From assembly GCA_029834535.1 (NCBI GenBank), contig JAQMWT010000009.1, positions 186,001 through 250,000 on the forward strand: a stretch of 64,000 nucleotides of DNA. The letters are read 5' to 3'. Origin of the DNA: Chrysophaeum taylorii (lineage: Eukaryota; Sar; Pelagophyceae; Pelagomonadales; Pelagomonadaceae). The notes below the pieces were generated by a model. The model saw nothing but the letters and a program-made list of their open reading frames with translations. It was not told the DNA's origin and did no database searches. The position numbers and the translations under genes are program-made. Of this stretch, positions 34,691 through 60,376 are shown in pieces. The first letter of the stretch is position 1. Each line of letters opens with the position of its first letter.

Positions 34691-35606
34691 CGCACGCGAA
34701 AAACGCGCTTTACTTTTTTGATGGTGGTGTTGTTCTACGAAAAACAGCCGCTTGCGTGAGAAGTGCACCAAGATTGTGCTGTTCGTGTGCTTACGGTATT
34801 GGCGCTCGGGAGCGTAGCCGAATTGTTCCATAGTTTCGAAATAGTAAGTAAAAGAACAGCGTTGAGGTTAGATGGTTTTTCATTTTCCCGCGAGGAAATA
34901 CAAGAGGAGTGGAAGAGAGATAAAAAAGAGGGTCACTCGTCGGCTATATGTATCGTGGTCGCGGCAAATCAACGCTCTGCGACCAATGTGTGCGAAGTTC
35001 GTTGTCGTTAGCGACTACGACGATGTCATCCACAGACAGGCTGCAAATGAGCAAGCGATTGAAGGGTTTGAATCTTCTTCAACGAAGTTGGAACCTTGCT
35101 CAAAACATGCCATTTATAATAATAATACAAGCTCAAACATAAATATTTTTATCTAACATACCGAGATTGATTTTGTGTACTTTAAACGGATTCCGCTATT
35201 CTAAACGGCTCGAGCCGCAAATCTTTGTTGACGAAGTCGATTCGTGGCTGTTTTCATGGAACTCCGTTCCATCGACGGCGGGATAAAGGGGAAGAGACCG
35301 TAGATTATTTCTCTGCAAAAGTGAAATGGTGTGAAGTCGATTTAGGTGAGGTGAGCGGAGGCGCGGGTCGAACGAGTACGCAATGATAAAAAAAGACGAA
35401 GCTGAGGGTGCAGAAGAGTCACGAGAGATAGGTAGGAACCAGCAAGGACATCATCGAATTCGATTCGTGTGCTCGCGGCTCCCAGAAGCCGCAGTGGGAC
35501 TTACTGCCCAGCTTATCCCGCGCCGGAAGGCAGCGGGATTTTGTGTTCCAATGTCGGCGACAGACATTTTGAGGTGGAAATCTAGCTCGGCGACAATACT
35601 CTCTCT
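34691..35606. other. AT-rich region between LINE remnant and ankyrin gene
   Basis: Lower GC than the gene blocks. Minus-strand translation near 34680-34800 still resembles the basic linker before a LINE reverse transcriptase, so the element may begin here. 35150-35600 holds no gene that I recognise. An in-frame extension of the ankyrin ORF (35419-35606) lies beyond its frameshift and is probably noise. Confidence 0.4.
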
Positions 35607-37119
35607 CTACAGTCGCCCTTCGCGCTTGCTTGGATAGGTGACTTGGTTGTCGTCGTCGTTGTCGTCGAGAAGTTGTACAACAGCCGGGTGATTCGACGCC
35701 AACTCCCGAACATTCCGACCTTTTTGACTGAAAACCACGTGCGTCGTGTCGGCGTACGGCAGCCACGGCAAACCCCGCAAAAACCCACGCATGCGCACAA
35801 TGTAAAGAATCGACCTCACGTTTGTCATCGCCTCGTGCCGAATGTCGCGCCGGTGAGCGAGAAGAACTCTGACGGTCTCGGCCCGGCCACTCATGCAGGC
35901 GTGCGCAAGAGGCGTGAACCCCTTGGTCATCCGGGTGGTTCGCCGTCGCATTGTGCTCAAGAAGAACGCGCACGATATCATGATGACCTTCGCGGCTCGC
36001 AGAGTGAAGAGACATGACACCATATTCATTGGTCAGGTTGACGTTAGCCCCATGCTCGAGCAGAAGGCGCGCGACATGAACGCGACCGTTCTCGCTCGCA
36101 ATGTAAAGAGGCGAGATGCCGCGGATCGTGGTCTGGTTGACGTTGGCCCCGCGCTCGAGCAGAAGGCGTGCCACATCAACGTGACCGTTTTGGCTCGCGA
36201 TGTAAAGAGACGAGACGTCGTCGTTCGTGGCCTGGTTGACGTTGGCCCCGCGCTCGAGCAGAAGGCGTGCGACATCAACGTGACCGACTTGGCTCGCAAT
36301 GAAAAGAGATGAGACGCCGTCATTCGCGACCTGATTGACGTTGGCCCCGTGCTCGAACAGAAGGCATGCGACATCAACGTGACCGTTCTGGCTCGCAATG
36401 AAAAGAGACGAGACGCCGTCGTTCGTGACCTCGTTGACGTTGGCCCCGCGCTCGAGCAGAAGGCGTGCGACATGAACGTGACCATCCTCGCTCGCAGCGT
36501 AAAGAGACGAGACGCCACGGATAGTGGTCTCGTAGACGTTGGCCCCGCGCTCTAGCAGAAGGCGTGCGACGTCGACGTGACCGTTCTGGCTCGCAGTGTA
36601 AAGAGACGAGACGCCGTTGGTCGTAACCCGGTTAACGTTGGCTTCGCGCTCAAGCAGAAGGCGTGCGACATCAACGCGACCTTTTTCGCTCGCAATGAGA
36701 AGAGACGAGGCGCCGTCGATCGTAACCTGGTTGACGTTAGCCCCGCGTTCGAGCAGGAGGCGTGCGAGATCGACGTGACCGTTCTGGCTCGCAATGTAAA
36801 GAGACGAGAAGCCGCGGATCGTGGCCTGGTTGACGTTGGCCCCGAGCTCTAGCAGAAGACGTGCAACGTCAACGTGACCTTCCTCGCTCGCAATGTAAAG
36901 AGACGAGATGCCGTCGTTCGCGACCTGATTGACGTTGGCCCCGTGCTCGAACAGAAGGCGTGCGACATCAACGTGACCGTTCTGGCTCGCAATGAAAAGA
37001 GACGAGACGCCGTCGTTCGTGACCTGGTTGACGTTGGCCCCGCGCTCGAGCAGAAGGCGTGCGACATCGAACTGACCGTTCTTGCTCGCAATGATGAGCG
37101 CCGACTTATCGTTTTGCAT
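35607..37119 (-). pseudogene. Ankyrin-repeat protein gene with 1-nt frameshift
   Basis: Starting at the ATG at 37119, twelve 33-residue ankyrin repeats follow in frame, with consensus DGVSSLFIASQNGHVDVARL, then LLERGANVNQ. In-frame codons upstream of the ATG (ALQLKHGIDVNHA) look like another repeat, so the true 5' end may be further right. The repeats are 99-bp units (about 36040-37110) nearly identical in DNA, a sign of recent expansion. At the CCCC run 35919-35922 the frame shifts by one base. The original frame turns into unrelated basic sequence, while the next frame continues a proper repeat (GFTPLAHACMSGRAETVRVL) and a C-terminal tail ending at 35607. Either a sequencing error in the homopolymer or a real lesion would explain it. 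Ankyrin arrays mediate protein binding; the partner is unknown. Confidence 0.88.
36040..37110 (-). repeat. 99-bp tandem repeat array (ankyrin units)
   Basis: About eleven head-to-tail 99-bp units. Each carries the string GTTGACGTTGGCCCCGCGCT or a close variant on the plus strand at the same phase. The period equals 33 codons, so the array is coding ankyrin DNA and not a CRISPR (there are no spacers) or a satellite. Confidence 0.9.
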
Positions 37120-37708: not shown

Positions 37709-40700
37709 TTGCTACTGGTGAACAAGTGTGAAAAGTGTGAAAGCAACCACCACAAGCGCGCAAAACGCAACCCCAAAACGATGGCGACTCACGACCCACA
37801 TGTCCCGAGTCTGGAAGTAGCGACGCAATTCGTTACACAACAAGCTCTCTTGCAACAGTTCAAAGCCGATTTCGTTGATCACCTCGCCGCTGATTGCCAA
37901 CAGCTCAAAGCTAATTTATTCGATCAACTCGCCGCTCATTACGCTGATCTCAGAGCCAAAATCGCTGCCGCAATCGAAGCTCAAGACGAGCAACTCGATC
38001 AAGACGTGCAACTCTATCAAGACGAGCAACTTGAACAGCTCCTCAACCAGCTGTTCTTACGGCACCCCCCCTCAAGCAAACTTCTCACGAAGTCGCGACC
38101 CAAGACCCGATCATCTCGATGGACACCCCCCCTCCTGCTGTTCAAAATGTTCTCGAACACGAACAGAACCCGCCTCCTGCCGACACCCCCACCGGATGTC
38201 AAACACCCCACGGCAAAGTCTCAGACCCCACTGCCTTCCCTCCGGACCCAGGCATCGCCAAGATTACTCCACAACCTGGCACACCCCACGTTCACGAGGA
38301 CACTCCACCTTGTTCGAATATCGCACCAGCAATATTGAACACTCCACCACCACCACCACTAAGCATTACTCCCTTCACTCCACCAACCCCACCGGAGCCT
38401 CCACCTCCTTCACTGGAGCCTAACTCCCCACTATCGGCGACTCCCACTTCACCATCTATTCATGTTCCCCAACATCCTTGTCAACCCCCTCGCCGCACCA
38501 CTCATCCCCTTCCTGATGATCATGCCACCTACGGCCATGACGGCCCCGGCACCGTCATCCCTGACCAAGCCCCCACCGCGGCTCAAGCTCCTGCCGCCCC
38601 ACCGTCGGACTCTCCTGTCCGATATCCATCATCTTCCGCAATTTACTCTCCTCAAGACTTCCATCTCCACTCGCAAGACCATGCCACCTACGGCCACAAC
38701 GGCCCTGGCACTTCCATCACTACCCCAGCTCCTTCCGCGGCTCAAGCTAGTGCCGCCCAACCATCGGACCATCCTAACCGACCTTCATCACCTTTCGAAA
38801 GTCGCTGTCCTCACGATTTTCACCCGCGCGCTTACGCACTCCACGGCTACGACCATTTCCCTATCTCCACCCAAGCGAAAACTCACCTTCTTTCTCAAAG
38901 TCCCCATGCACCTCCGTCTTCGCTTCAACGCGAGTTGGCCACCACTCAGGCTGCATTCCGCTCCCAAACCGCTGACTTGGCCGCAACCAAGGCCACGCTC
39001 ATTCGCAAGGACGACGCTTTATCCTCCACAGCCGCCAAACTCACCATAACCGACGCAGCCCCAGCTTTCGCCACTGCCAAGCTCGCCATCCAAGCCGACG
39101 ATCTGGTCTCCACCCACGCGGAACTCCATCTCACCCACACCCACTTCAAGGCACTCGAAACTGTCCACGCTGACATCCCACTTTGAAACCAACGCCGACC
39201 TCCACACCATTCTTACCTCCTTGGATGCCACCCACCCCACCCAAGATGCTGCATCGCATCTTTTACCTCCTTTCCTCATTCACCACGTACCTTCATCCCC
39301 TTCCGAACCAACCTCCAATACTTCTCTCCCGATTCTCCCCGAGTCTCATCACCACCTCCACGGATGCCCCGGACCTGGCTCTCCTGGTTCCCCACCCACT
39401 CCGCCTATCTGTTCTCAACCCCCCGCCATCTCTAGCCCCTCCTCCTCTGCTAACTCACTCTTCGCCTCTCTGGCACCCCCTGAACCCCTTTGCACCGTTC
39501 GCCTTCTCCGCCACCTGATTCATTCCAACTCCACCACATCCCCGCGTCCGAGTTGCGAGGGCGTACATCCAACACCAGCGACCGTACCCCTACCACCAGC
39601 GACATTCACCACGTGCAAAATCCCACCAAGAAACAAGACCACCAACATCAAGAGTCGACAAATTCCGTATTATCAAAAGACAGCTCTTTCCCTGATGGTC
39701 ATGCTCACCATCATGCTGCCAAGACACATGCACAAGGGCTTCTTCTCTCTTCGGGTACAACGGCCCAGGAAGCAGTCTTGTCGAAGGAACACCAAGCCAC
39801 CTCGTTCCCACTTTCGACAAGTCAAAGAACAAAACACCTCGAGATGCTCCCGAGTATTGCGCCTGCGTCGACTATGGCAACCATACTCAAGGACCTAAGG
39901 CTCCGCCGTACTCTATGCCCCAGGCACAAGAGCCGCAGGCCACTGACAACATCCCCTCGGATTCAGCCCCCTGGTATGATGCATACAGCGAAGAAGCAAG
40001 ACCCACTTCACTAGCCTCGAAGATGGTCTCCCCGACCATTCCAGATCAGCCACCTGATCCAAGCACCATCACCAATGCCCCCGCAATGCCGTATCCACAA
40101 GGACAAGACACGCTGTCAACGGTCCCACGATCAACAGACACGCAGGCACTCACCGCACCTGCAGGTGTCCGCTCAGATTCACCAGGCACTCCCGCCTTGT
40201 TCGATATCTCTCGATCAGCCGCTCCCGATCACTTCGAAGCTGGTTCCACCTCGCTGCCTTCTCTCCCCGAAGACAGGCGCGCACTGCCGCTCACCGGCGC
40301 TCGCTGCTGCACCCACCATCCACCTTCTCGGCCGAATGCACTGGATGACACTGCTCAGCAGGTTGCATGGACCCATCTGCGATCACCATTTCACGATTCG
40401 ATGGACGTCTTCGCACGAGCATCAGTCGCAGCACATGATCACCCGCTCCCCAACTCTCAGTCAGAGGACGCACTCCTTTCGGCTGCCGACCCTTACGTCT
40501 CACCGCAACCAAGCTTCTGGAAAGCCTTCACCACGGCTGCAGTAATAGACAAAGATTTCGAGGGTTCTGAACGACCCGATCAGCCGCAAACTATGCACGC
40601 TTCTATTGCGACCACTTCGGTCCTTTATGTCCCCTTGCATAGCTCTCTTCTGGACGCCACACTCTTGCGCTGCCTCCGGAATATCGATGTTGCGCTCTCA

Positions 40701-43500
40701 GGAGACATTCTCCGCGCACAATGCACAGACTCGCTCCACCTGAACCGCTTCTGTCAGCACCTTCGCATCACTGGAATGTACGACGAACGTTCCACGCCAG
40801 CTGCCGGCTCCACCACACACATGCACCCAAGTCACGCGCGTTGCCTCCCTCAAAAGCGTCTTCTCGCTCGGCACGTAACTCCTCATTCGAGGACGCATGT
40901 CAAATGCCCGCACCTTCGAATGCCCTACACGCCTATGGGCAACCCCGGGCACTACGGCAATCACTGCTCTGGTCCTCGCATCTCCGCCATTGAGGATGCA
41001 CCCAGCATAACTGACCCTTCCTTCCATCGCCCTTGGTTCTACTGCACTCTCCTTCGGCAATCCCCCTTTTCGATTTCCCACACTTTACCCCAAGCATTCC
41101 AGGCCGGATACTCTCCACCACGGGACCTCAGCACACGCGCCCATCTGCACTACCTTGCAGACAGGTCAGCCGCGAGCCACACCCCTTTTGGCACTGACTT
41201 CGGACCACCCGCATCACGCGCTTTTGCTCTTGGAGCATGACACGCTTCTCGATGCTCTCCGCGTCACCGCCTTGAACACCAAGACACTCGTCATTTCCAC
41301 CGACGCTCCGCGCCGCAACGTACCTCACGACCTTCGGATCACCAACATAAGTCGCTCGCGCCCGCGCACCACGTCGCGCACGCCTCGCGAGGGCGTATTT
41401 CAATTGGTGACCTCACAGGTTTTTCGATGCATTCTCCGACCTCCGACTTTGAACTTACGAGTTACTTTATGGCAATCCCCAATGCAAAGACGTGTGAAGC
41501 TGCGCAATCATGTCTCTGAAACTCCAAAGCCACAGAAACTGCCAGACAAGAAAGCACTCAGCTCTCCACAGCTGCTCAACAGCTACTTATAGTCTCGCAC
41601 ATAGCAACGAGCACTATCTCGCAGTCTCTATTGGACGACAAGACGAAAGATAAGACCACAACGGCCAGCTACACCAGCCAGCTCATTGATGTAGCAGACG
41701 AGACAATGCAAACCAACTGCACAGCACGGTTCCATACTATGCAGACGATGCTCAGGTCCAACGCTCAATTGCTCGACCACGCACACGTTCTGTCACCTGA
41801 CATTGCACTGCGACTGGCTCCTGTCTCATTCATAGCTGATGCACCCCATCCGATGGTTTAGTCCTTAAGATATGCCCCGCTCGCAGAAGCACCACCGCAG
41901 GACACACAGGTACATCATGAAGATACAGGTAAGCGCACCACGATCACGGGCACAAGCTCATTGCGCCTATCTGATCACGACGAGACGAAGCTACAGCTCT
42001 GCTTGCTCCCTTGACCTCTGGAAGACAAAGGCCGCCTTCCAGCCTCCCAGGCACCTGACCCGTCCCTGTCGCTGCAATCCGCATTAGCACAGACGATATC
42101 GCATCTCTGCACGACTGCAGATCAGGCACAAGCCAATGCCAGCATTCTCCAGAGTTATGCGCACCCGCTGGAATCTTACCAGCACGGCTACCTCAGCCAG
42201 TCAGGTCACTGCACCACCTCGGTCTCCCCTGACACCAGGTCGACGCATCGCTCATTCGCGACCACCTCAAGTCATCTATTGGACGACTATGATCTCGAGC
42301 ATGAACTCATCGCAACGCTTGAGTCATACCCAAGAAGGAATCCTACTTTGGAGTCACCTCGGCCACTCCCACAAGAACTTTGGCCACCAGACGCCACCTA
42401 TGTGCTCATGGCTTCTCCATTGGTTTCCACCAGAGCTTTTGACTGCAGCAGAGAAAAAATGCAACCTTCCCATGCGACTACACCCGCATCCTCGTTTGGG
42501 ACACGAGCATTTACTTCATGTCAGATGTTTACGCTCGTATTACCGCCACACACGACAACCAAGATAGAAGTGGACTGCGTTCCACCCTCATCTCTGAGCG
42601 TTACCCCAGACAAGCTGCTCCCGGCACTACTAGCCAGTCCCATCACGTCTGATTCAGCTCCCATCGCTTTGTATGACGCCACATGTCATATTCCGATTAC
42701 AGCCCAGACATCGCACAGGCTCACTCGCGACGGCACGCTCACCGCCCCTCTCGGCTTAGACTACCAGCATTGCGCCATCCTTATGGCACACTCATAGTCA
42801 ACTGAGATGCACGCTCGCTTGCCGCACTGTACGATGCCCGAGCACCTTTTGGCTCAAGCTAAGCAGAACACTGTCGTCTCAGCCACCCCCGACGCGCCCC
42901 CTCAGACCGCCGCCCGGCTCTGCGCTCGTTCCGCAACAACGTTTTCTCCGTCTCACCGGCAATTCGAAGATTTCACCCAGTTCGAACTACGAGGGCGCAC
43001 CAGTTTTCCACCGACGACAAGATTCGTTTCGATTCGTATAAGTCATGTCTCCTATGGCTACTCTGGCTACATCGGAATTCACTTCCAGGCACGTACCGAA
43101 GTCCCTCTTCCTGAGGACCTCTGTCACACGCAAAGACCTGATGAGCCCTCGTCGTTCCTCCCCGCTTCAACGCGACTCCCGACGACCAAATCCCCGACGA
43201 TTTGTGATGACACAAAGTTCCGTCATCAATGCAATTCCGAGCCTCCCACGCTCTTCCGTCAGTCTCTTGCAGGTCACACCTCTCAAGTTTCAGCTCGCTC
43301 GATTTTATCCTGCATGCTGCCGTATGCAAACGAAGTTCTGTCACGCCAAAGCCACACGTCGCAGTTATCACCAGTCTCGCGCAATAAATGCCCGCCACCA
43401 AATGATAGCCGCACGCAGAGTCCTTTGCTCACCTCTTTTAACGTCCCTCCCAGCACTATGCTTGACGTTGAAGCTCTGGACCACTATGGTAAAGGAAGCA
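37709..43500 (+). pseudogene. A/C-rich decaying coding region, left part
   Basis: Unlike the rest of the window, the plus strand is rich in A and C and poor in G. It carries overlapping open frames only on this strand (e.g. 37709-38338, 38119-39186, 39221-39898, 39915-41240, 42279-42797). Frames join logically across shifts. A helical N-terminus (MATHDPHVPSLEVATQFV ...) runs into a Pro-rich segment at ~38050-38120. A two-copy 53-residue repeat (HATYGH[D/N]GPGT) sits at 38521-38840, and a coiled coil (RELATTQAAFRSQTADLAAT) continues across a shift at ~39183 into ETNADLHTILTSLDA. No polymerase, integrase or protease motif was found. A gag-like or structural protein of a mobile element is a guess. 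No function is assigned. Confidence 0.5.
38521..38840 (+). repeat. Two tandem ~159-bp in-frame repeats
   Basis: Copies begin at 38521 and 38680 with CATGCCACCTACGGCCA. Both translate in the same frame to a 53-residue unit that starts HATYGH and ends near QDFH or HDFH. The unit length is a multiple of three, so the repeat arose or was kept as coding sequence. Confidence 0.75.
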
Positions 43501-51240: not shown

Positions 51241-52533
51241 TTAGCTGACGAAGGCGCCGGCGAGGGCGCCGGTTTCGATCGCGATGAAGTTCATCTGAGC
51301 GACGATGGGGCAGGCAAACTCGTGAGAGTGGCCGCAGACTTGGTGCGCCTTCTGGCTGAAGACGACCGTCGCGCGGCCAACCAGGAATGCGACGGCCGCG
51401 TAGAAAAGGAGCGGGATGACGTTGGAGTTGATCCCCATGTCGGCGTGGAAGACTTTGTAGAGGCGGATGCCCGCGTAGCCCAGGGGAGCCGCCAAAACGT
51501 AGACGGCCGGCCATTTGGCCGTCGGCGCGGGCGGCGGTCGGTCGATCGAACGGCCGAGGTAACCGCAGACGTTATTGGCGGCGATGCAGAGCGTCGGGAG
51601 GTAGGCGGCCCAGAACTGTCGTCGAGAGTGGCCAACGATCGGAAGGTCGGGGGAGACGAGGAGCATGACGACGAGGCAGAACGTGTTGAGGAACTGGGCC
51701 AGGGCGAGGGGCGCGACCTTTCGGACGCGGTCCTTGACGAAGTCGTGCTTTCCGCACTCCGAGCACCGACCAATCGTGTCCTCGATCGGATTGTTGCAGC
51801 GGCGCCACCCGAGGGTCTCGTCGCCCGCGCGCTCGGCATGCTCGCTCTCGCGAAAAATAGGGTCGCGAGCGATGCGCGAGGTCGCGAAAATCGAGCTGAA
51901 ACACAAAACGGCGGCCGCCGCGGCCGAGAGACCCGCGGCGATCGCCGTCTGCTCGGCGAGCCTCGAGGCGTCGATCACCGCGAGCGGCAGCATCGCCAGC
52001 TGGATGACCGTCGGCAAAAATATTCCAAACGCGGCGCCGCGCAGCTGAGTGACGCCGACGCCGCGAGACAAACTGTAAGCGTCGAAGATCCCGCTCACCG
52101 ACGCGCCCAGCGAGCACGAGACCCCCGTCGCGGCACCGTTCACCGCCACCAGGCCGTACAGCACCGTCCCCGATATCGAGCTCCGCATCGCCGCGATTAC
52201 CAGGAGCGTCACGTTGAACCCCGCCGCGAACGCGAACGCGCACAGGAGCATCCGCGCGTGCGACCGCAGCCTCGGCTTGCGCGGCGAGAAGCACAGCAGG
52301 CACATCACCGCGACCAGCATCATGTTGTGCCATCGCGCGAACTGGCACAACGCGCTCGAGGCGAGCCCGCCGTCCAACCGGAAGTACGCCACGGCCATCA
52401 CCACCGCGTTGTACGTCACCACGGCGCCGGCGCCGATCGAAAAGAAGGCGAGGTGCAGCGCCGGACCCGATGACTCCTTCTCGGTCTCCGGCGTTGTCAG
52501 CAAACTCCGTTCATCCGCCGCGCCTGCCCTCAT
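51241..52533 (-). CDS. ENT-like (equilibrative nucleoside transporter family) membrane protein
   Basis: 430 residues from the ATG at 52533; the longer frame starts with a GTG. About ten or eleven hydrophobic segments are visible. The first, FSIGAGAVVTYNAVVMAVAYF, resembles the ENT TM1 pattern 'G.G.L.P.N....A..YF'. A long cytosolic loop in the middle (about residues 205-260) contains CNNPIEDTIGRCSECGKHD, with four Cys, which is unusual. The second half has VCGYLGRSIDRP, comparable to ENT TM8 'FDxxGR', and a C-terminal glycine-rich helix (NFIAIETGALAGAFVS) like ENT TM11. ENT proteins move nucleosides or nucleobases down gradients across membranes. Substrate and membrane are not determined. Convergent with the FkbM gene, 91 bp apart. 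Confidence 0.68.
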   Translation of the reverse strand: MRAGAADERSLLTTPETEKESSGPALHLAFFSIGAGAVVTYNAVVMAVAYFRLDGGLASSALCQFARWHNMMLVAVMCLLCFSPRKPRLRSHARMLLCAFAFAAGFNVTLLVIAAMRSSISGTVLYGLVAVNGAATGVSCSLGASVSGIFDAYSLSRGVGVTQLRGAAFGIFLPTVIQLAMLPLAVIDASRLAEQTAIAAGLSAAAAAVLCFSSIFATSRIARDPIFRESEHAERAGDETLGWRRCNNPIEDTIGRCSECGKHDFVKDRVRKVAPLALAQFLNTFCLVVMLLVSPDLPIVGHSRRQFWAAYLPTLCIAANNVCGYLGRSIDRPPPAPTAKWPAVYVLAAPLGYAGIRLYKVFHADMGINSNVIPLLFYAAVAFLVGRATVVFSQKAHQVCGHSHEFACPIVAQMNFIAIETGALAGAFVS

Positions 52534-52957
52534 CTCTTCGAACCGACCCCGCCGCACGTCGTCGTCGTCGTCGTCGTTGTCGTCAGCACCCGTGGTGGGA
52601 GCCGAACATAGGGAGGGTTTAATAATTACTGTCGTCGTCGTCGTCGTCCATCGGCTATTGTTATAACAACACGATGGCGCTCGTTCTCATTAAAGAAAGC
52701 GCGCGTCCTAATCACTCCTTCCTCCCTTCCTACAAACACACTATCTTATCTATATATCTACCCTGCTGCTGGATGGAGCTGGAGCAAAATAAAAACAAAA
52801 TTTCTTTTTTTTCCTGGAAGGTAGAGAGCGATCGGTCTAGATTCCGTTCGTGCGGTCCTGATGACGATTGATGGTCACTCACATCGCATCGCGTGTAAGG
52901 GAGGGGCATCGTGTCTAGAAGAAGACAATCCCCCCCCCCCCTTCCTTCCTTCCTTCT
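52534..52957. other. Intergenic spacer with (TCG)n tracts
   Basis: Lies upstream of the ENT-like gene and downstream of the fusion gene (both minus). Holds two (GTC/TCG)n microsatellites (~52558-52575, ~52632-52650), AT-rich DNA and a C-run at ~52926-52938. No gene is supported. Confidence 0.5.
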
Positions 52958-55573
52958 TCAGATGGGGGGTAGATGATGATGATGATGGGAGCGGTCGACG
53001 AGACTGTGGGTTTCGGCCTGATCGTGGGCTCGGGCCCCGTGCTTGGCACGGCGCCAGAGGCCGAGGAGCTCGGAGCGCGCTGCCGAGTTGAGGGAGACGA
53101 CGACAGAATTTTTTTCGCTTTTAAAGATGGGGTTGTGGAAGGTAGAGAGAGGAGGCGCGCCATCAGCATGACCGTCTTTGGGAATAATCCGGCCGACGGC
53201 GGCGTTGGCGTCGACGAGGCGCTCGGTTCGGGCTTGGGCTCTGAGGACCAAAGAACTCGCCCCGAAAAGAATTGCCGCGCCGGCCAAGTAGGCGGGTCCG
53301 GGAAGGGGGGCGCCGGCGTAGACGTGGGCCTCGAGGACGGCGCAGAGGGGCTGGAAGAGCATGGCGAGGGTCGTGACGAGGGGGTCGACGTAAGCGAGGG
53401 CGACGACGTAGCCCATGGTGCCGAGGGTGTCGACGAAGATGCCCGAGTACAGAAAGGCGTCGCGGCGCTGGGGCGAGAAGAGGCCGAGGGCGCCGGCGAC
53501 GGGGTCCGTCGAGAAGAAGAGAGGGTCGTCGTTAGCACCGGAAAGGAAGAAGAGGACGGCCAAGCCGAACGCGGCGGATCCGGCTTGGAGTACGAAGTGG
53601 AGGTCGGGCGCCGCGAAGGAGGGCCGCACCATTTTGGTTAGGATGCTGGAGCAGGCGTTTGCGGCGACGCACAAGGCGCCGAGGGCCGCGGCGAGGAGCG
53701 GCCGGGCGTTTTTGTTGTTTTCGGTCGCATTCGACGACGACGACGACGACGGCGGCGCGTTCGCGCCGCAAACAAACGCTCCCGAGAGTCCGAGGAGCGT
53801 GCCGAGGACTTCGCCCCGCGAGGGCGCGGCGCCGTAGAGGCGAAGGAGGCGCGCCAGAACGACCGCGAGGGGCGCGAGCGACGTCACCAACACGACATCG
53901 TTGGGCGAGGTTGCGACGTCGAAAGCGAGCAGGTAGCTCGAGCCCATCAACCACTGGAGAGCGGCGCAGACGATAAGAACGCCGTAGTAGCGGGCCGTTC
54001 TCTCGGGAGGAGCACTGGTCCTGGTATGCGCACGACGGGCCGCGACGAGCGGCAAGACGCACAGGGAGGCGGCAAGCGGGCGCCAAAACGTGACCATAGC
54101 TTTCTCGGGCGGAGGTCGCGACTCGGCGACTCGGTCGAAGACGATCGCGGCCGAGGCCTGAAGGGCCGTCGCCGTGCCCAAGATGACCCATCCGATCAGG
54201 GGGACGCGGCGCTCGACGAGCACCTCGAGCATCTTTTCGGGGGGGTTGGCACGGAGTTTGAGATGTTGGATGTCGTCGACGTCTTCTATGCCCGTCGACG
54301 CGAGGAGCGTCGCGCACGCGGGCTCGTCGTCGACGTCGTCCGCGTCCGCCGCCGCCGGGGTCATCATAGCGGCGGCGGCGGCGGCGTCGTCGTCTTCTGG
54401 AACCAAAGCGACTATCTTATCCGCGTCGACCTTGGCCAGCAGCGCGTCGTCGTAGGGGAGCGAGACGGAAGTTTTTGGGGGAAGGGCCCCTCCCGCGACG
54501 GGCGCGACCAAGTAGCGTCGTTCGCGGCGAACGTACGCTGCTAGGGAACCGTTAGTAGAATCACGAGGAGGTCGTTTCTTGTAGTGGACCTCGAAGGGGA
54601 CTTTGTCTTGAAAGGAAGGGGACGCGAGGAGCACGCGCGTCGACTCGAGCTGCTCCTCGGTCTCGACGGCAAACCAGGGCCTCTTGTCGGCGAACACGGC
54701 CCTCAGCTCGTTTTTTCGAGCGAGAGCGTCCAGAGCTTCGCACAACGCAAAGTAGCGGTGGCGGTTTCTGGCGAGGCGCTCGAGGGCATCGAAGATCCGG
54801 GGCCCGCCAAGCCGCACGAGCCCGGCGTCGAAGGCATCGTGGTCCTCGACGCGTCGCCCCACGCGCTCGCACCAGAAAGACGAGACGTCGTCGTCCGAGA
54901 CGAGAACGGTCCTCGCGCGAACGGCCGTCGACGGGAGCAGGTAATCTTTCAGCTGGTCGTGAAGCTCGCCCTCGACCAGAAGCGCGTCGCCCTCGACCCC
55001 GCGCAAGACGGCATCCAGCAGCGAGGGGTCAAAAAGGTGGTCCGACGTCACCAGCAACGCCGGCCTCCTGCTCAAGCCCGGTCCGCACAGCCGTTCGACC
55101 GCGGGTTTTGCCCTCAATATCGACTCGGCGTGCGTGCCGCTCCACCCGTCCCCCAAATTCAAAATCTCGATCTCGAGCCGCGACTTGCGCCGGAACGATT
55201 CGATGTGACTTCGGATCTCCTCCCCCCGGTACCCTACGAGCACGATCACCGCGTCGAATCGGGCTCTTTCGAGCGATCGCAGCGAGTGAATCAGCACCGA
55301 CTGACCACCGATCTCCAAAAGCTCTTTCGGGGTCGACCTCCACTCCGCGCTCCCCGTCTGCCCCTTCGGCGGCCGTCGCGCCGCCGTGATGACGGCCACG
55401 CCCCCCTCCACCGCCGCCGACGACGACGACGACGACTTGATTTCCTCCTCCTCCTCCTCCTCCTTGATTTCCTCCTCCTCCTCCGGAAAGAGGTGCGCAA
55501 CGAGCCGCCGCCGAGAGGTCCCGACAACGCGCGCCAGCACGTCGAGGTCCAGCGCGAAGACCCATTTCTCCAT
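52958..55573 (-). CDS. Nucleotidyltransferase-DMT transporter fusion
   Basis: 871 residues from the ATG at 55573; the longer frame begins with TTG. Residues ~1-30 are followed by Glu and Ser runs. Residues ~55-325 form a nucleotidyltransferase: VAVITAARRPPKGQTG and STPKELLEIGGQSVLIHSL correspond to the family's G-rich loop and 'PK.L..i.g.pli'. GDGWSGTHAESILRAKP, LLVTSDHLFDPSLLDAVL, DAFDAGLVRLGGPRIFDALE and AVFADKRPWFAVETEEQLES follow the order of inositol-1-phosphate or phosphocholine cytidylyltransferases (IPCT, LicC). Residues ~465-770 are ten hydrophobic helices in two EamA/DMT halves (IGWVILGTATALQASAAIVF ... SPNDVVLVTSLAPLAVVLARL; FLYSGIFVDTLGTMGYVVAL ... LEAHVYAGAPLPGPAYLAGA). The C-terminal tail is charged with a His run. 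The NTase loop lacks the usual GxGxR, so catalysis is unproven. Bacterial licB and licC encode similar partners as separate genes. Confidence 0.8.
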   Translation of the reverse strand: MEKWVFALDLDVLARVVGTSRRRLVAHLFPEEEEEIKEEEEEEEIKSSSSSSAAVEGGVAVITAARRPPKGQTGSAEWRSTPKELLEIGGQSVLIHSLRSLERARFDAVIVLVGYRGEEIRSHIESFRRKSRLEIEILNLGDGWSGTHAESILRAKPAVERLCGPGLSRRPALLVTSDHLFDPSLLDAVLRGVEGDALLVEGELHDQLKDYLLPSTAVRARTVLVSDDDVSSFWCERVGRRVEDHDAFDAGLVRLGGPRIFDALERLARNRHRYFALCEALDALARKNELRAVFADKRPWFAVETEEQLESTRVLLASPSFQDKVPFEVHYKKRPPRDSTNGSLAAYVRRERRYLVAPVAGGALPPKTSVSLPYDDALLAKVDADKIVALVPEDDDAAAAAAMMTPAAADADDVDDEPACATLLASTGIEDVDDIQHLKLRANPPEKMLEVLVERRVPLIGWVILGTATALQASAAIVFDRVAESRPPPEKAMVTFWRPLAASLCVLPLVAARRAHTRTSAPPERTARYYGVLIVCAALQWLMGSSYLLAFDVATSPNDVVLVTSLAPLAVVLARLLRLYGAAPSRGEVLGTLLGLSGAFVCGANAPPSSSSSSNATENNKNARPLLAAALGALCVAANACSSILTKMVRPSFAAPDLHFVLQAGSAAFGLAVLFFLSGANDDPLFFSTDPVAGALGLFSPQRRDAFLYSGIFVDTLGTMGYVVALAYVDPLVTTLAMLFQPLCAVLEAHVYAGAPLPGPAYLAGAAILFGASSLVLRAQARTERLVDANAAVGRIIPKDGHADGAPPLSTFHNPIFKSEKNSVVVSLNSAARSELLGLWRRAKHGARAHDQAETHSLVDRSHHHHHLPPI

Positions 55574-55896: not shown

Positions 55897-56883
55897 ATGG
55901 TGAGAACTCAAACTGGGTTCAGGTGTCGCGAGGCGCAATGCGGCTGGTGTGGGTCTTCTTCGGGCACGCTACGAAACTGCAGTCGTTGCGGTCTAGTGAG
56001 ATATTGCAGCCGCGAGTGCCAGCGGGAGGCATTCCCTGGGCACAAAATCCTGTGCAAGATGTCCGGCGAAGCCTTTGAGCGAACCGATGAGAACGGTCGA
56101 CGACGCATTTTGTACGACAAGACCTTCGGCGGTGCGTACTCGCTCCTCGCCGCGGCGCAGCGTAGCCCGGGGATCGTCCTCGCCGAACTCTCGCACAAAG
56201 CGTCAGATTTCTGCGGGCGACGCCGCGACAGGTCGCCGAGGTCGATCAGACTGTCGCACGTCGACGCGACCGCCTTGGTCCCGTTGCTCGCATGCAATCA
56301 GCATCCCTCACTGCCGGAGCTGGCCTTGCGTGCGGCCGACACTTTCTGCACGAATATCGATCGAAGCAGCGTCACCGTCGTCGCGCTCCGCGAGGAAGGA
56401 CGTCTCGACTTTTACCTCATGGCGATGTGGTTGGGTCCCACGCACCCCGCGCACGCCTACTTTCGGGACGCCCTCGGCTCGCCGGCGCCTGTGATTTTGT
56501 GGGACGAGCAGGAACCGCGCGACAAGCGAGACGCCCTCGCCCAGTGGCTCTACCGCAACGCGGTAGGCTCGCAATTCTACCTCAGTTGTTCGCTCGAGTG
56601 GGACCGCTTACACACCGGCGAGGTCGATCCCCGGACTTGCCTCGATATGTCCCCGCCTGTCGCGTGCAACGTCGACGCGCGGAGTTGTGCGACCACGGGT
56701 GCTGACGCGTGCTTAATCTATCGCCGCATCGCCCCGACGACCAAGGCCCGAAAGCACCAAGACCCCAAAACGGGACGCTCGCTGGATCCTAACTACCAAA
56801 ACCGCCACATATCCGAAGAAGAGCACCGCAGCCACGTGGCCTGTGCTAAATCTGTATCGGCCGCACTAGCTCGCCAGAGCTGA
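55897..56883 (+). CDS. MYND zinc-finger protein
   Basis: 328 residues from ATG 55897. The N-terminal MYND finger is complete: CGWCGSSS ... LRNCSRCGLVRYCSRECQ ... GHKILC (residues ~15-53), with the C-x2-C / C-x2-C / C-x3-C / H-x3-C ligand pattern. MYND fingers bind proline-rich peptides. The remainder (~60-320) is a globular domain with no name I can give; it includes LDFYLMAMWLGPTHPAH and ILWDEQEPRDKRDALAQWLY. No SET domain motif is present, so it is not a SMYD methyltransferase. Such MYND-plus-unknown proteins are common in algae and fungi. Likely cytosolic or nuclear. No intron is visible. Base composition matches the gene block. Confidence 0.85.
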   Translation: MVRTQTGFRCREAQCGWCGSSSGTLRNCSRCGLVRYCSRECQREAFPGHKILCKMSGEAFERTDENGRRRILYDKTFGGAYSLLAAAQRSPGIVLAELSHKASDFCGRRRDRSPRSIRLSHVDATALVPLLACNQHPSLPELALRAADTFCTNIDRSSVTVVALREEGRLDFYLMAMWLGPTHPAHAYFRDALGSPAPVILWDEQEPRDKRDALAQWLYRNAVGSQFYLSCSLEWDRLHTGEVDPRTCLDMSPPVACNVDARSCATTGADACLIYRRIAPTTKARKHQDPKTGRSLDPNYQNRHISEEEHRSHVACAKSVSAALARQS

Positions 56884-57741: not shown

Positions 57742-59517
57742 TTAGGGATCGCCGACGAGGACCTCGCGGTCGGCTTTCGGTTGTTCGTCGTCGTCGTCGT
57801 CCTTGTCTTTCTGCTTGGGATCTGCATCGTAAACGTCGAGGACGACGGGGCGCGCGGTAACGAGGCGGGTGTCGCCGTCGTCGAGGCGCGGGACGATGAG
57901 GAAGGGCTCGCGAGCCTTGTCGCCTCCCAGGTATATATCGAGCTTGGAGAAAACGAAGCAGGCAGTCGTGGAAACGAGGGGCACGACGATGAAGGTGACC
58001 ATAGTCTTGACGCCGCAGAGCGAGCAATCGTAGGGTTCGCCGTTGGACTTGGTGTTCGTGAGCCAAAAGTAGGCGAGGAAGCCCTTTTCGTACACTTTGC
58101 CCGTGTAGGGGTTGACGGCTTTGTTGACGTCGTTGATCTCGCCGTTGACGATGACCGTCGCGAGGCCGGCGAGACAACCGGCGAAGGCCCCGAGTTCGGT
58201 GGGAGCCGGGATCGTGAAGATGCCGAAGACGTCGACATCCTTGTCGAGGAGGCCAGCGAAGAGGGGACCGACGGAGGTCGCGCAGACGAGATCGGCGACG
58301 AGAAACAACGGGACTACTTCAAAACGGTCCGCGGCCTGGATGACCGCGGCGATGTTGAAGACAACGACGACGATCCGCGACCAGTTGGCGGAAAGCTTGT
58401 GGCGGATGAGGTCGTGGGAGAGGACGCTCGAGAGGCCGTTCTGGAGGGTGTCGACGCTCGACGCGGCCAACGTCGTGAGGAGGGCGAGCGTGACGAAGTG
58501 CCAGAAGCGGGGGAGGGGGAGGAGCAAGTCGAAGAACGAGAGGTAGGCAAGCTTCTGGAACGAGTCGTAGGCGTCGCGGTCGTTCGCGTAGGCGATCATG
58601 CCCATGACGCCAAAGAACATCATCACGAGCGTGACGAAGAGCGCGCCGAGCGCGAAGCCGGCTCGCATGTCGAAATCAGACTTCGCGGCCCAGACGCGCT
58701 GCCAGGTTCCCTGGTTGAAGAGCTCGGCGCTCGCGATGGCGATGTAGAGCGTGACGAGGGCCTCGAATCCCTTGGAAAACCAGCCGGTCGCGTCGTCGAA
58801 CTCGTCGCGCGACAACTCGTTGCGCTTGAGCGAGGTCGTCGCCACCAGCAGCATCGTCACGACCGCGGCGATGACGACCCCCTGGAACTTGTCGGTAAAT
58901 ATGGAGGCGGGAAGCCCCGCGAGAGCCGTGTAGCTCCAGGTCATGATGGCGAGGGCGACGGCGATGTTCGTCGTGTAGTCCTTCGAGTCGTTGCCCGCGA
59001 TCGACTTGCCCGTCACGGTCGCGTACACGTTCGAGAGGCTCGTGAATTCGGCGACCATGTAGATGTACATGTAGAAGCACGAGATGCACACGACGTGGAG
59101 GTGCATGAGGCGGCCGTACCGCGCGAGCGCGAAGTCGGTCGCCGTGTACCCCGCGTCAGCGCCGACGCGTTTTTTTATCTTCGGACCCAGGAACATGAGC
59201 AACATCGCCGGAAAGCTCGAGGCCGTCGAATACCCGATCACTCCCCACCACGACAACGACCGCGTCGCCCCCATTTCCGTCGTGCCGTACACGATCCACG
59301 CGCCCATGCCACTCGCGAAGTACGACAAGCCGATAGAGTACCACGAGGCGCTCGACCGCGCGCTCAAAAAGGTGTCCGTCGGCCGCAAGATCGCCCGCAA
59401 ATCGCCCTTCAAAAATACCGACACCACCGTCATAACCGCGAAGAACCCGAGGATCCCGAGCAGCACGCCCCACGCATCGCTCACCGGCACGTTGAACTCC
59501 TCGTTGTCGGTCGCCAT
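57742..59517 (-). CDS. Sodium/solute symporter (SSS) family transporter
   Basis: 591 residues from ATG 59517 (MATDNEEFNV); the longer frame would run through a (GT)n microsatellite. About thirteen to fourteen membrane helices are visible. Landmarks include FLSARSSASWYSIGLSYFAS and GAWIVYGTTEMG (the broken first helix of the LeuT-like core), GYTATDFALARYG, VAEFTSLSNVYA, TWSYTALAGLPASIFTDKFQ (typical of SSS 'YT..GGl.Av.wTD..Q'), and LLTTLAASSVDTLQNGLSSV (the helix with Na2-site Ser/Thr residues). The C-terminal ~50 residues are charged and cytosolic with an Asp run. Family members couple sodium or proton gradients to uptake of urea, sugars, carboxylates or other solutes. The sequence looks closest in style to fungal/algal DUR3-like urea transporters, but the substrate is inferred, not shown. 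Plasma membrane is likely. Confidence 0.88.
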   Translation of the reverse strand: MATDNEEFNVPVSDAWGVLLGILGFFAVMTVVSVFLKGDLRAILRPTDTFLSARSSASWYSIGLSYFASGMGAWIVYGTTEMGATRSLSWWGVIGYSTASSFPAMLLMFLGPKIKKRVGADAGYTATDFALARYGRLMHLHVVCISCFYMYIYMVAEFTSLSNVYATVTGKSIAGNDSKDYTTNIAVALAIMTWSYTALAGLPASIFTDKFQGVVIAAVVTMLLVATTSLKRNELSRDEFDDATGWFSKGFEALVTLYIAIASAELFNQGTWQRVWAAKSDFDMRAGFALGALFVTLVMMFFGVMGMIAYANDRDAYDSFQKLAYLSFFDLLLPLPRFWHFVTLALLTTLAASSVDTLQNGLSSVLSHDLIRHKLSANWSRIVVVVFNIAAVIQAADRFEVVPLFLVADLVCATSVGPLFAGLLDKDVDVFGIFTIPAPTELGAFAGCLAGLATVIVNGEINDVNKAVNPYTGKVYEKGFLAYFWLTNTKSNGEPYDCSLCGVKTMVTFIVVPLVSTTACFVFSKLDIYLGGDKAREPFLIVPRLDDGDTRLVTARPVVLDVYDADPKQKDKDDDDDEQPKADREVLVGDP

Positions 59518-60376
59518 GCTTCTTTCTTCTTCTTTGCGAGTCTCTGTGTGTGTGTGTGTGTGTGCTCCCCGACGGTGTCTTAACACGTCCGGGTCCTGAC
59601 CGTCTTATCTCAGCTACGTCTTCCGCGTAGCACCGGTGCACACACTGCTCCGAGACCGCCGCGCCGCCTGCAAGCTTCAACTCGACTTGGCGGCTAACTT
59701 TACGTGCGTGGATCGCTGATCGCGGGGAATCGCGGAATCACAACTTAACAACAGCACCCATTAAGGGGTAAGGGATGGATCATTTACAGCACTCTACATA
59801 GGTCTAAGTCTATAATACTGCTAGTTATAGATAAATCGAAGCTGCGCCTACAACTGTGTGAAATCCTCAATGTACAGTCGGCTTCCCGGATAATCTGGCT
59901 TTTCGAGTTGTTGATTCCCTCCTTCCTTCAAGAGGTTTTGGGGTCCGTCCGTCCGTCCGTCCGTCCGTCCGTCCGTCCACATTCGCCGATCTGTTGGTGT
60001 TGCGATGACGTAAGGCCTTGTGATTGAGTAAAGCCACCTGGTGGGAGGTAGGTAGATGTGGCAGGCAGGGTATCTCAGATGCGTGTGTCGACCCCCGGCG
60101 GGCCGGAACTGAAGCCGCGACTGTCCGTTCGCTGTCGGGGGTGCAGAAGAAAGGCGACGACGAGCTGATGGTCAGTCATATCGTGGAGGTGTCTCTATAC
60201 ACGTCGCATAGCGCGAAGTAGGAACTCACACTGTCGCTCCTTTTCGCGACCCTCGTCTGACAACAAACAAAACGCCCTCTGAACTGAACGAACTACGGCG
60301 CTGAGATTAGCTATAGCCTACGGTCCACGCCCTTTAAAAAATAGTCAGGCAATCGACCTTTTGACCGACCGATCGA
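59518..60376. other. Intergenic region upstream of symporter
   Basis: Contains (TG)n at 59545-59564, AT-rich DNA (59700-59900) and (GTCC)n at 59943-59978. Short ORFs (e.g. 60024-60221) show no domain. It probably holds the symporter promoter and the 3' UTR of the Cys-rich gene. Confidence 0.45.
59943..59978 (+). repeat. (GTCC)n microsatellite
   Basis: Nine perfect tetranucleotide units. Confidence 0.95.

Follow-up and report, generated by a model that had tools for sequence, protein, structure and literature searches.

An EamA transporter joined to an inositol-phosphate cytidylyltransferase-like domain with an altered phosphate loop in the alga Chrysophaeum taylorii

In bacterial lic operons, the choline importer LicB and the CTP:phosphocholine cytidylyltransferase LicC are encoded by separate genes. 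The cytidylyltransferase consensus is GXG(T/S)RX4-8PK, and in PntC the arginine and the lysine are among the residues whose alanine mutants dropped below 10% activity (excerpts of PMC6697681). In the inositol-phosphate cytidylyltransferase (IPCT) of T. maritima, R16, K26 and D112 are called critical (excerpts of PMC12275187). In the CTP:phosphoglycerate cytidylyltransferase CpgD, the cytosine base is bound by Thr93, the ribose is contacted by Asn90 and Gly12, and Trp201 shifts upon binding (excerpts of the preprint PMC13228409). GMPPA, a non-catalytic relative of nucleotidyltransferases, can bind GDP-mannose and regulates GMPPB (excerpts of PMC11228364). No fusion of a nucleotidyltransferase (NTase) to an EamA transporter was found reported in the open-licence literature covered, and none was seen in excerpts of PMC5898192. 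The gene described here combines these two halves; they are known parts, and their joint architecture is new.

The window, that is, the whole 64,000-nucleotide stretch of Chrysophaeum taylorii DNA that was analysed, contains on its minus strand (52958-55573) an ATG-to-stop frame of 871 codons that begins MEKWVFALDL, ends HHHHHLPPI* and has no internal stop (Table 1). The initial annotation had described one uninterrupted frame, and translation bears this out. The three motifs it had quoted were located at residues 82-90 (PKELLEIGG), 176-186 (TSDHLFDPSLL) and 246-251 (DAFDAG). The frame is not a product of chance, since the longest frame in 200 mononucleotide shuffles read in three frames reached 432 codons and since third-position G+C is coding-like throughout, at 0.68-0.87 with the linker included. 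The N-terminal segment (residues 6-30) is conserved in five of seven close family members, the other two (P0003 and P0006), as called, starting downstream of it; it is weaker in two paralogues, with 28% and 42% identity over 25 columns.

Table 1. Positions of the fused gene, its domains and motifs in the window, and of its two paralogues
Feature	Position	Strand	Basis or remark
Whole gene, NTase-EamA fusion	52958..55573	-	871 aa + stop, no intron needed
Residues 6-30, N-terminal segment FALDLDVLARVVGTSRRRLVAHLFP	55484..55558	-	two short helices predicted, 10-16 and 21-28
Residues 36-54, low-complexity linker, acidic and serine-rich	55412..55468	-	pLDDT <50 at 42-54
Residues 56-330, nucleotidyltransferase domain, IPCT type	54584..55408	-	profile matches
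TAARR, residues 63-67, where the AGXGXR phosphate-binding loop would lie	55373..55387	-	Arg67 kept, both glycines lost
PKELL, residues 82-86, with Lys K83 of GXG(T/S)RX4-8PK	55316..55330	-	alignment
GTHAES, residues 146-151, presumed base-binding loop	55121..55138	-	Ser151 matches CpgD Thr93, His148 matches CpgD Asn90 (inferred)
SDHLF, residues 177-181, metal-binding type Asp178	55031..55045	-	alignment
HDAFDAG, residues 245-251, matching YD[AG][FY]DTG of two IPCT-like proteins	54821..54841	-	alignment
WFAVET, residues 300-305, in the position of W-x-D-[VI]-D-T	54659..54676	-	alignment
Residues 331-452, linker with TGIEDVDDI-like stretch, poorly conserved	54218..54583	-	alignment
Residues 453-780, EamA/DMT transporter, ten long helices, starts VERRVPxxGW	53234..54217	-	Pfam, alignment, model
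Residues 781-871, C-terminal tail, variable	52961..53233	-	alignment
Paralogue P0008	contig C531		1067 aa; NTase then transporter, one frame
Paralogue P0009	contig C330, L008:1801-4299	-	833 aa, fused open frame, NTase half degenerate (no PK, block missing)

Several other frames surround the fused gene. The next one on the same strand (51241-52557, minus) encodes 438 residues, is hydrophobic and probably multi-pass, and is unmatched by Pfam up to E 0.1; by eye it resembles equilibrative nucleoside transporters. On the other side lies a member of the sodium:solute symporter family (57742-59586, minus; E 3.4e-6), with a long open frame antisense to it. A 328-residue MYND-finger protein is encoded upstream of the fused gene on the opposite strand (55897-56883, plus; E 2.8e-11). 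The window also carries a dynein heavy chain fragment and WW and Torus proteins, which, with the MYND protein, mark the genome as eukaryotic. Another contig, of 103,599 bases, encodes a RuBisCO large subunit that reads as red-lineage type; the best solved matches of this subunit, 7yk5 and 5mz2, are diatom enzymes, pointing to a probable ochrophyte-like alga. Farther away, an ankyrin-repeat frame (35419-37119, minus) contains a tandem array at 36036-37093 with 10.7 copies of a 99-base unit and 84% matches. Positions 38001-42000 are strongly GC-skewed (-0.45 and -0.29 when read at 2-kb intervals), with a 159-base repeat at 38521-38813.

A search of 5.8 billion proteins, in which the 7996 candidates sharing most words with the query and having 0.55-1.75 times its length were scored (a design blind to stand-alone halves and possibly also to intron-split genes), revealed six other proteins of 799-892 aa. 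They come from six different contigs and match 91-99% of the 871-residue query length with 42-49% identity. Two diverged paralogues with identical domain order, each in one open frame, were found in the same 70.8-Mb, 697-contig genome. The order is the same in the query, the six full-length homologues and both paralogues; therefore, all nine members found are fused, and the fusion proposed from the first reading of the locus is real. In a eukaryote one might suspect that neighbouring genes, or a misassembly, had been read as one protein; the recurrence of the same order in six proteins from six contigs and in both paralogous loci, together with coding-like third positions across the linker, makes such an artefact extremely improbable. 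When the NTase half alone was used in a protein search, no stand-alone version was detected at E 0.001 or better among 7999 candidates. With the transporter half alone as query, no loci in the genome other than the three fused ones were hit at E 0.01 (four candidates scored), and a family search gave at least 67 EamA stretches elsewhere in the genome, in a listing from which the fused genes themselves are absent. A tree built from 91 NTase domains sets the nine fused ones to one side of a branch whose support is 100/100 and which recurs in 200/200 bootstrap trees; the branches of P0008 and P0009 are very long, these long branches meet at the nine-member split and the root is arbitrary. The simplest reading is a single old fusion followed by duplication.

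Profile searches place the N-terminal half with IPCT. The NCBIfam model NF041135 (IPCT/DIPPS) matches residues 79-321 of the query protein, P0001, with E 3.6e-10 (39.4 bits versus an equivalog cut-off of 580) and is matched by all nine fused members. The best solved relative by profile is IPCT 2xme (E 5.7e-6, profile positions 25-252), IPCT-DIPPS 4mnd giving E 4.6e-5 and LicC 1jyk a weak match at E 0.19. Pfam NTP_transf_3 is weak in P0001 (E 0.0012, 19.5 bits versus a cut-off of 27). The N-terminal region thus falls inside the nucleotidyltransferase superfamily, as had been suspected. Pyruvate kinases, the best single-sequence PDB matches (E 0.046 and above), were taken as chance. Elsewhere in the genome NTP_transf_3 matches three further loci, read as IspD (C314), an eIF2B-gamma-like protein (C334) and a frame with a HAD-like part (C157).

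Prokaryotic genomes were scanned twice. With a profile of the nine members, none of 46 stretches was confirmed. The alignment used for the second scan included two IPCT-like proteins and hence was steered to the IPCT family; 279 of 454 stretches were confirmed and 80 kept. Among these 80 of 279 relatives, the AGXG loop was found in 73 (strict GXG[TSR][RK] in 67, a looser form in 6), the pattern being unmatched in 7. By pattern reading, W-x-D was likewise found in 73, with D each time, and was unmatched in 7. A CDP-alcohol transferase motif lies in the same frame as the NTase in 45/80. Pfam analysis of ten hand-chosen frames gave CDP-OH_P_transf in 7, one of them missed by the motif, and LPG_synthase_TM in one. 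No transporter-like frame was detected at the 80 loci when plus-strand frames of at least 120 aa were searched with the transporter profile at E 0.01. The frame with LPG_synthase_TM is acidobacterial (L068:4833-6680) and joins this membrane domain to an IPCT-like NTase; three bacterial loci (L042, L050 and L056) carry NTase, CDP-alcohol transferase and HAD phosphatase in one protein. A viral origin was rejected: full-length and NTase profiles gave 82 and 69 pattern-matched stretches in viral contigs, none of them confirmed. The NTase half was also unmatched in phage records at E 0.01.

Alignment of the fused NTase domains with IPCT-like proteins indicated which catalytic features are kept and which are lost, several of the residue matches depending on alignments of 25-26% identity. 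The GXG(T/S)R signature is missing in all nine members, being TAARR in seven, STASR in P0008 and unrecognisable in P0009; the altered glycine-rich loop noted in the initial annotation is therefore right and general. The PK dipeptide is present in eight of nine; by hand count, the spacing from the arginine to PK is 4-8 residues in two of the nine (P0004 and P0007) and longer in six. By alignment, equivalents of Arg67, Lys83 and Asp178 are kept in eight members, while P0009 has no lysine and its arginine column is unsure. Where W-x-[DE]-[VI]-D would be expected, 8/9 have W-x-A-[VI]-E and P0009 has W-A-V-V-D. We take this motif to be the site of the LicC Glu216-type metal ligand. At the places of CpgD Thr93 and Asn90, which were matched through IPCT-like proteins with CpgD itself outside the alignment, eight members have Ser151 and His148 and P0009 is gapped. 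By inferred position, Ser151 and Trp300 are tentatively kept, CpgD Asn90 is replaced by His148 and the ribose glycine is gone.

The retention of phosphate- and metal-binding residues together with the loss of the phosphate loop and the carboxylate pair looks like a ligand-binding domain that is a slow or dead enzyme. Catalysis may still be possible, since the arginine, lysine and aspartate critical in T. maritima IPCT seem to be kept in eight of nine members. The NTase could accordingly be an active, retuned cytidylyltransferase coupled to the transporter, which activates an imported headgroup or passes its CDP-product on, as LicB and LicC in one chain; we regard this as possible but somewhat doubtful. 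The frequent joining of the nearest prokaryotic NTases to a membrane enzyme that uses their product (the CDP-alcohol transferase motif) favours it. Its difficulty is that GXG is lost in all nine members and W-x-D in eight, versus the presence of each in 73/80 relatives, and that paralogue P0009 is also without the lysine. A group translocation is an unlikely variant: here, the domain would cytidylylate, or capture as a CDP-adduct, a phospho-alcohol leaving the transporter on its cytosolic side, so that uptake and activation become one step, with a phosphate site independent of the glycine loop.

The two halves of the protein differ in constraint. When the seven close members are compared in pairs, the NTase half averages 65.5% identity, the transporter half 47.4% and the linker 32.9%; the invariant columns number 104/273, 65/328 and 4/115, respectively. 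Judged from these alignments, the main group's NTase half is strongly constrained even though its loop has been lost. Its higher conservation relative to the transporter would also suit an active enzyme. The same conservation is evidence against plain decay and bears on another explanation, in which the transporter is the sole working part and the NTase half survives as a relic or serves folding or targeting as a module kept for structure. The lost catalytic features and the degenerate NTase of P0009 agree with such a relic; with 104 invariant NTase columns in the seven close members, several of them in pocket motifs, we consider it improbable. P0008 is 35.3% identical to the seven in the NTase half and 27.2% in the transporter. 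For P0009 the corresponding values are 31.6%, with 58/273 NTase columns missing, and 34.9%; since its NTase is below its transporter half in identity, relaxed constraint or decay fits that copy. P0009 has lost the PK lysine and an NTase block and is still fused and open, as expected if catalysis is dispensable. It provides a natural comparison for a dead-enzyme reading.

Pfam detects EamA in P0001 as two stretches (E 1.6e-7, 32.1 bits versus a cut-off of 28.2), and a search up to E 10 reported EamA and NTP_transf_3 alone. In P0008 the EamA score falls short of the cut-off (19.9 bits), and a Pfam scan up to 0.1 leaves P0009 unmatched. The predicted model, which is of low confidence (mean pLDDT 50), has a DMT fold with ten long helices between residues 459 and 780, counting the once-broken 731-753 as one helix and omitting a five-residue helix at 695-699. 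Two EamA halves and ten helices, as first described, are thus found by the family profile and the model, respectively. If the N-terminus is inside, inside loops contain 17 Lys+Arg versus 7 in outside loops; this excess would place the NTase domain on the cytosolic side. Foldseek ranks LicB first for the model, which is also a point for an active cytidylyltransferase working on what the transporter brings in. In a second aligner, LicB ties with 5i20 and PfCRT, and SLC35 structures follow close behind. Of the earlier interpretation, the NTase-transporter fusion and the altered glycine loop stand; choline specificity is unsupported beyond the shared fold.

We propose, with about even confidence, that the gene product is a transporter of the DMT superfamily (EamA) with a cytosol-facing sensor domain that gates transport and is derived from inositol-phosphate-type cytidylyltransferases. 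The NTase domain would still bind a nucleotide or product, which may be CTP, a CDP-alcohol or a polyol or choline phosphate. Binding would be through the kept Arg67, Lys83, Asp178, Ser151 and Trp300, and the bound ligand would be turned over poorly or never. Ligand binding may alter the shape or packing of the NTase domain and in this way open or shut the transporter. Transport of the headgroup or a related metabolite would thereby be matched to the CDP-alcohol or CTP pool of the cell, by analogy with the way non-catalytic GMPPA reads GDP-mannose. Because of the GMPPA precedent and the conserved pocket with a lost loop, we favour a sensor over a retuned enzyme and place a relic after both.

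With the fusion, the range of membrane proteins joined to IPCT-like domains would extend to a transporter. The family is also a natural test case for the idea that a nucleotidyltransferase fold can become a metabolite sensor built into a solute carrier. Should the domain indeed read CTP or CDP-alcohols, algal transport of headgroups or osmolytes would be linked directly to the levels of lipid precursors. An altered loop inside an otherwise conserved pocket raises the pointed question whether the domain is active despite the missing GXG or binds its ligand without being active.

The systems closest to the fused protein resemble it in different parts. IPCT-DIPPS, a bifunctional L-myo-inositol-1-phosphate cytidylyltransferase and CDP-inositol phosphotransferase (NF041135, 4mnd, 2xme), belongs to the same NTase subfamily by profile, shares motifs DHxF, D-x-x-D-[AT]-G and W-x-x-x-[DE]-T, and likewise has an N-terminal NTase ahead of its membrane part. 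However, its membrane half is a CDP-alcohol phosphotransferase rather than an EamA transporter, and the fused algal family is without the GXG loop and W-x-D and scores far under the NF041135 cut-off. The bacterial NTase-LPG_synthase_TM protein (L068) likewise combines an IPCT-like NTase and a multi-pass membrane domain in one frame, but has both AGXG and W-x-D, and its membrane domain is unrelated to the EamA transporter. LicC with LicB pairs a cytidylyltransferase fold with a DMT transporter, as the fusion does, whereas the LicC profile match is weak and LicB is tied with other structures in the second aligner. PntC-AEPT (6pd1/6pd2) is a phosphonate cytidylyltransferase joined to a transaminase, not to a transporter, and keeps GXG(T/S)RX4-8PK. 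CpgD is IPCT-related, with comparable Arg, Lys, Asp and base-binding Thr/Ser; it is active and, unlike the fusion, has no transporter, and its Gly12 and Asn90 are, by inferred position, changed in the algal proteins. The partner of GMPPA is a sister enzyme, GMPPB, and not a fused transporter, yet GMPPA, as the proposed sensor would, binds a product without catalysis and regulates its partner.
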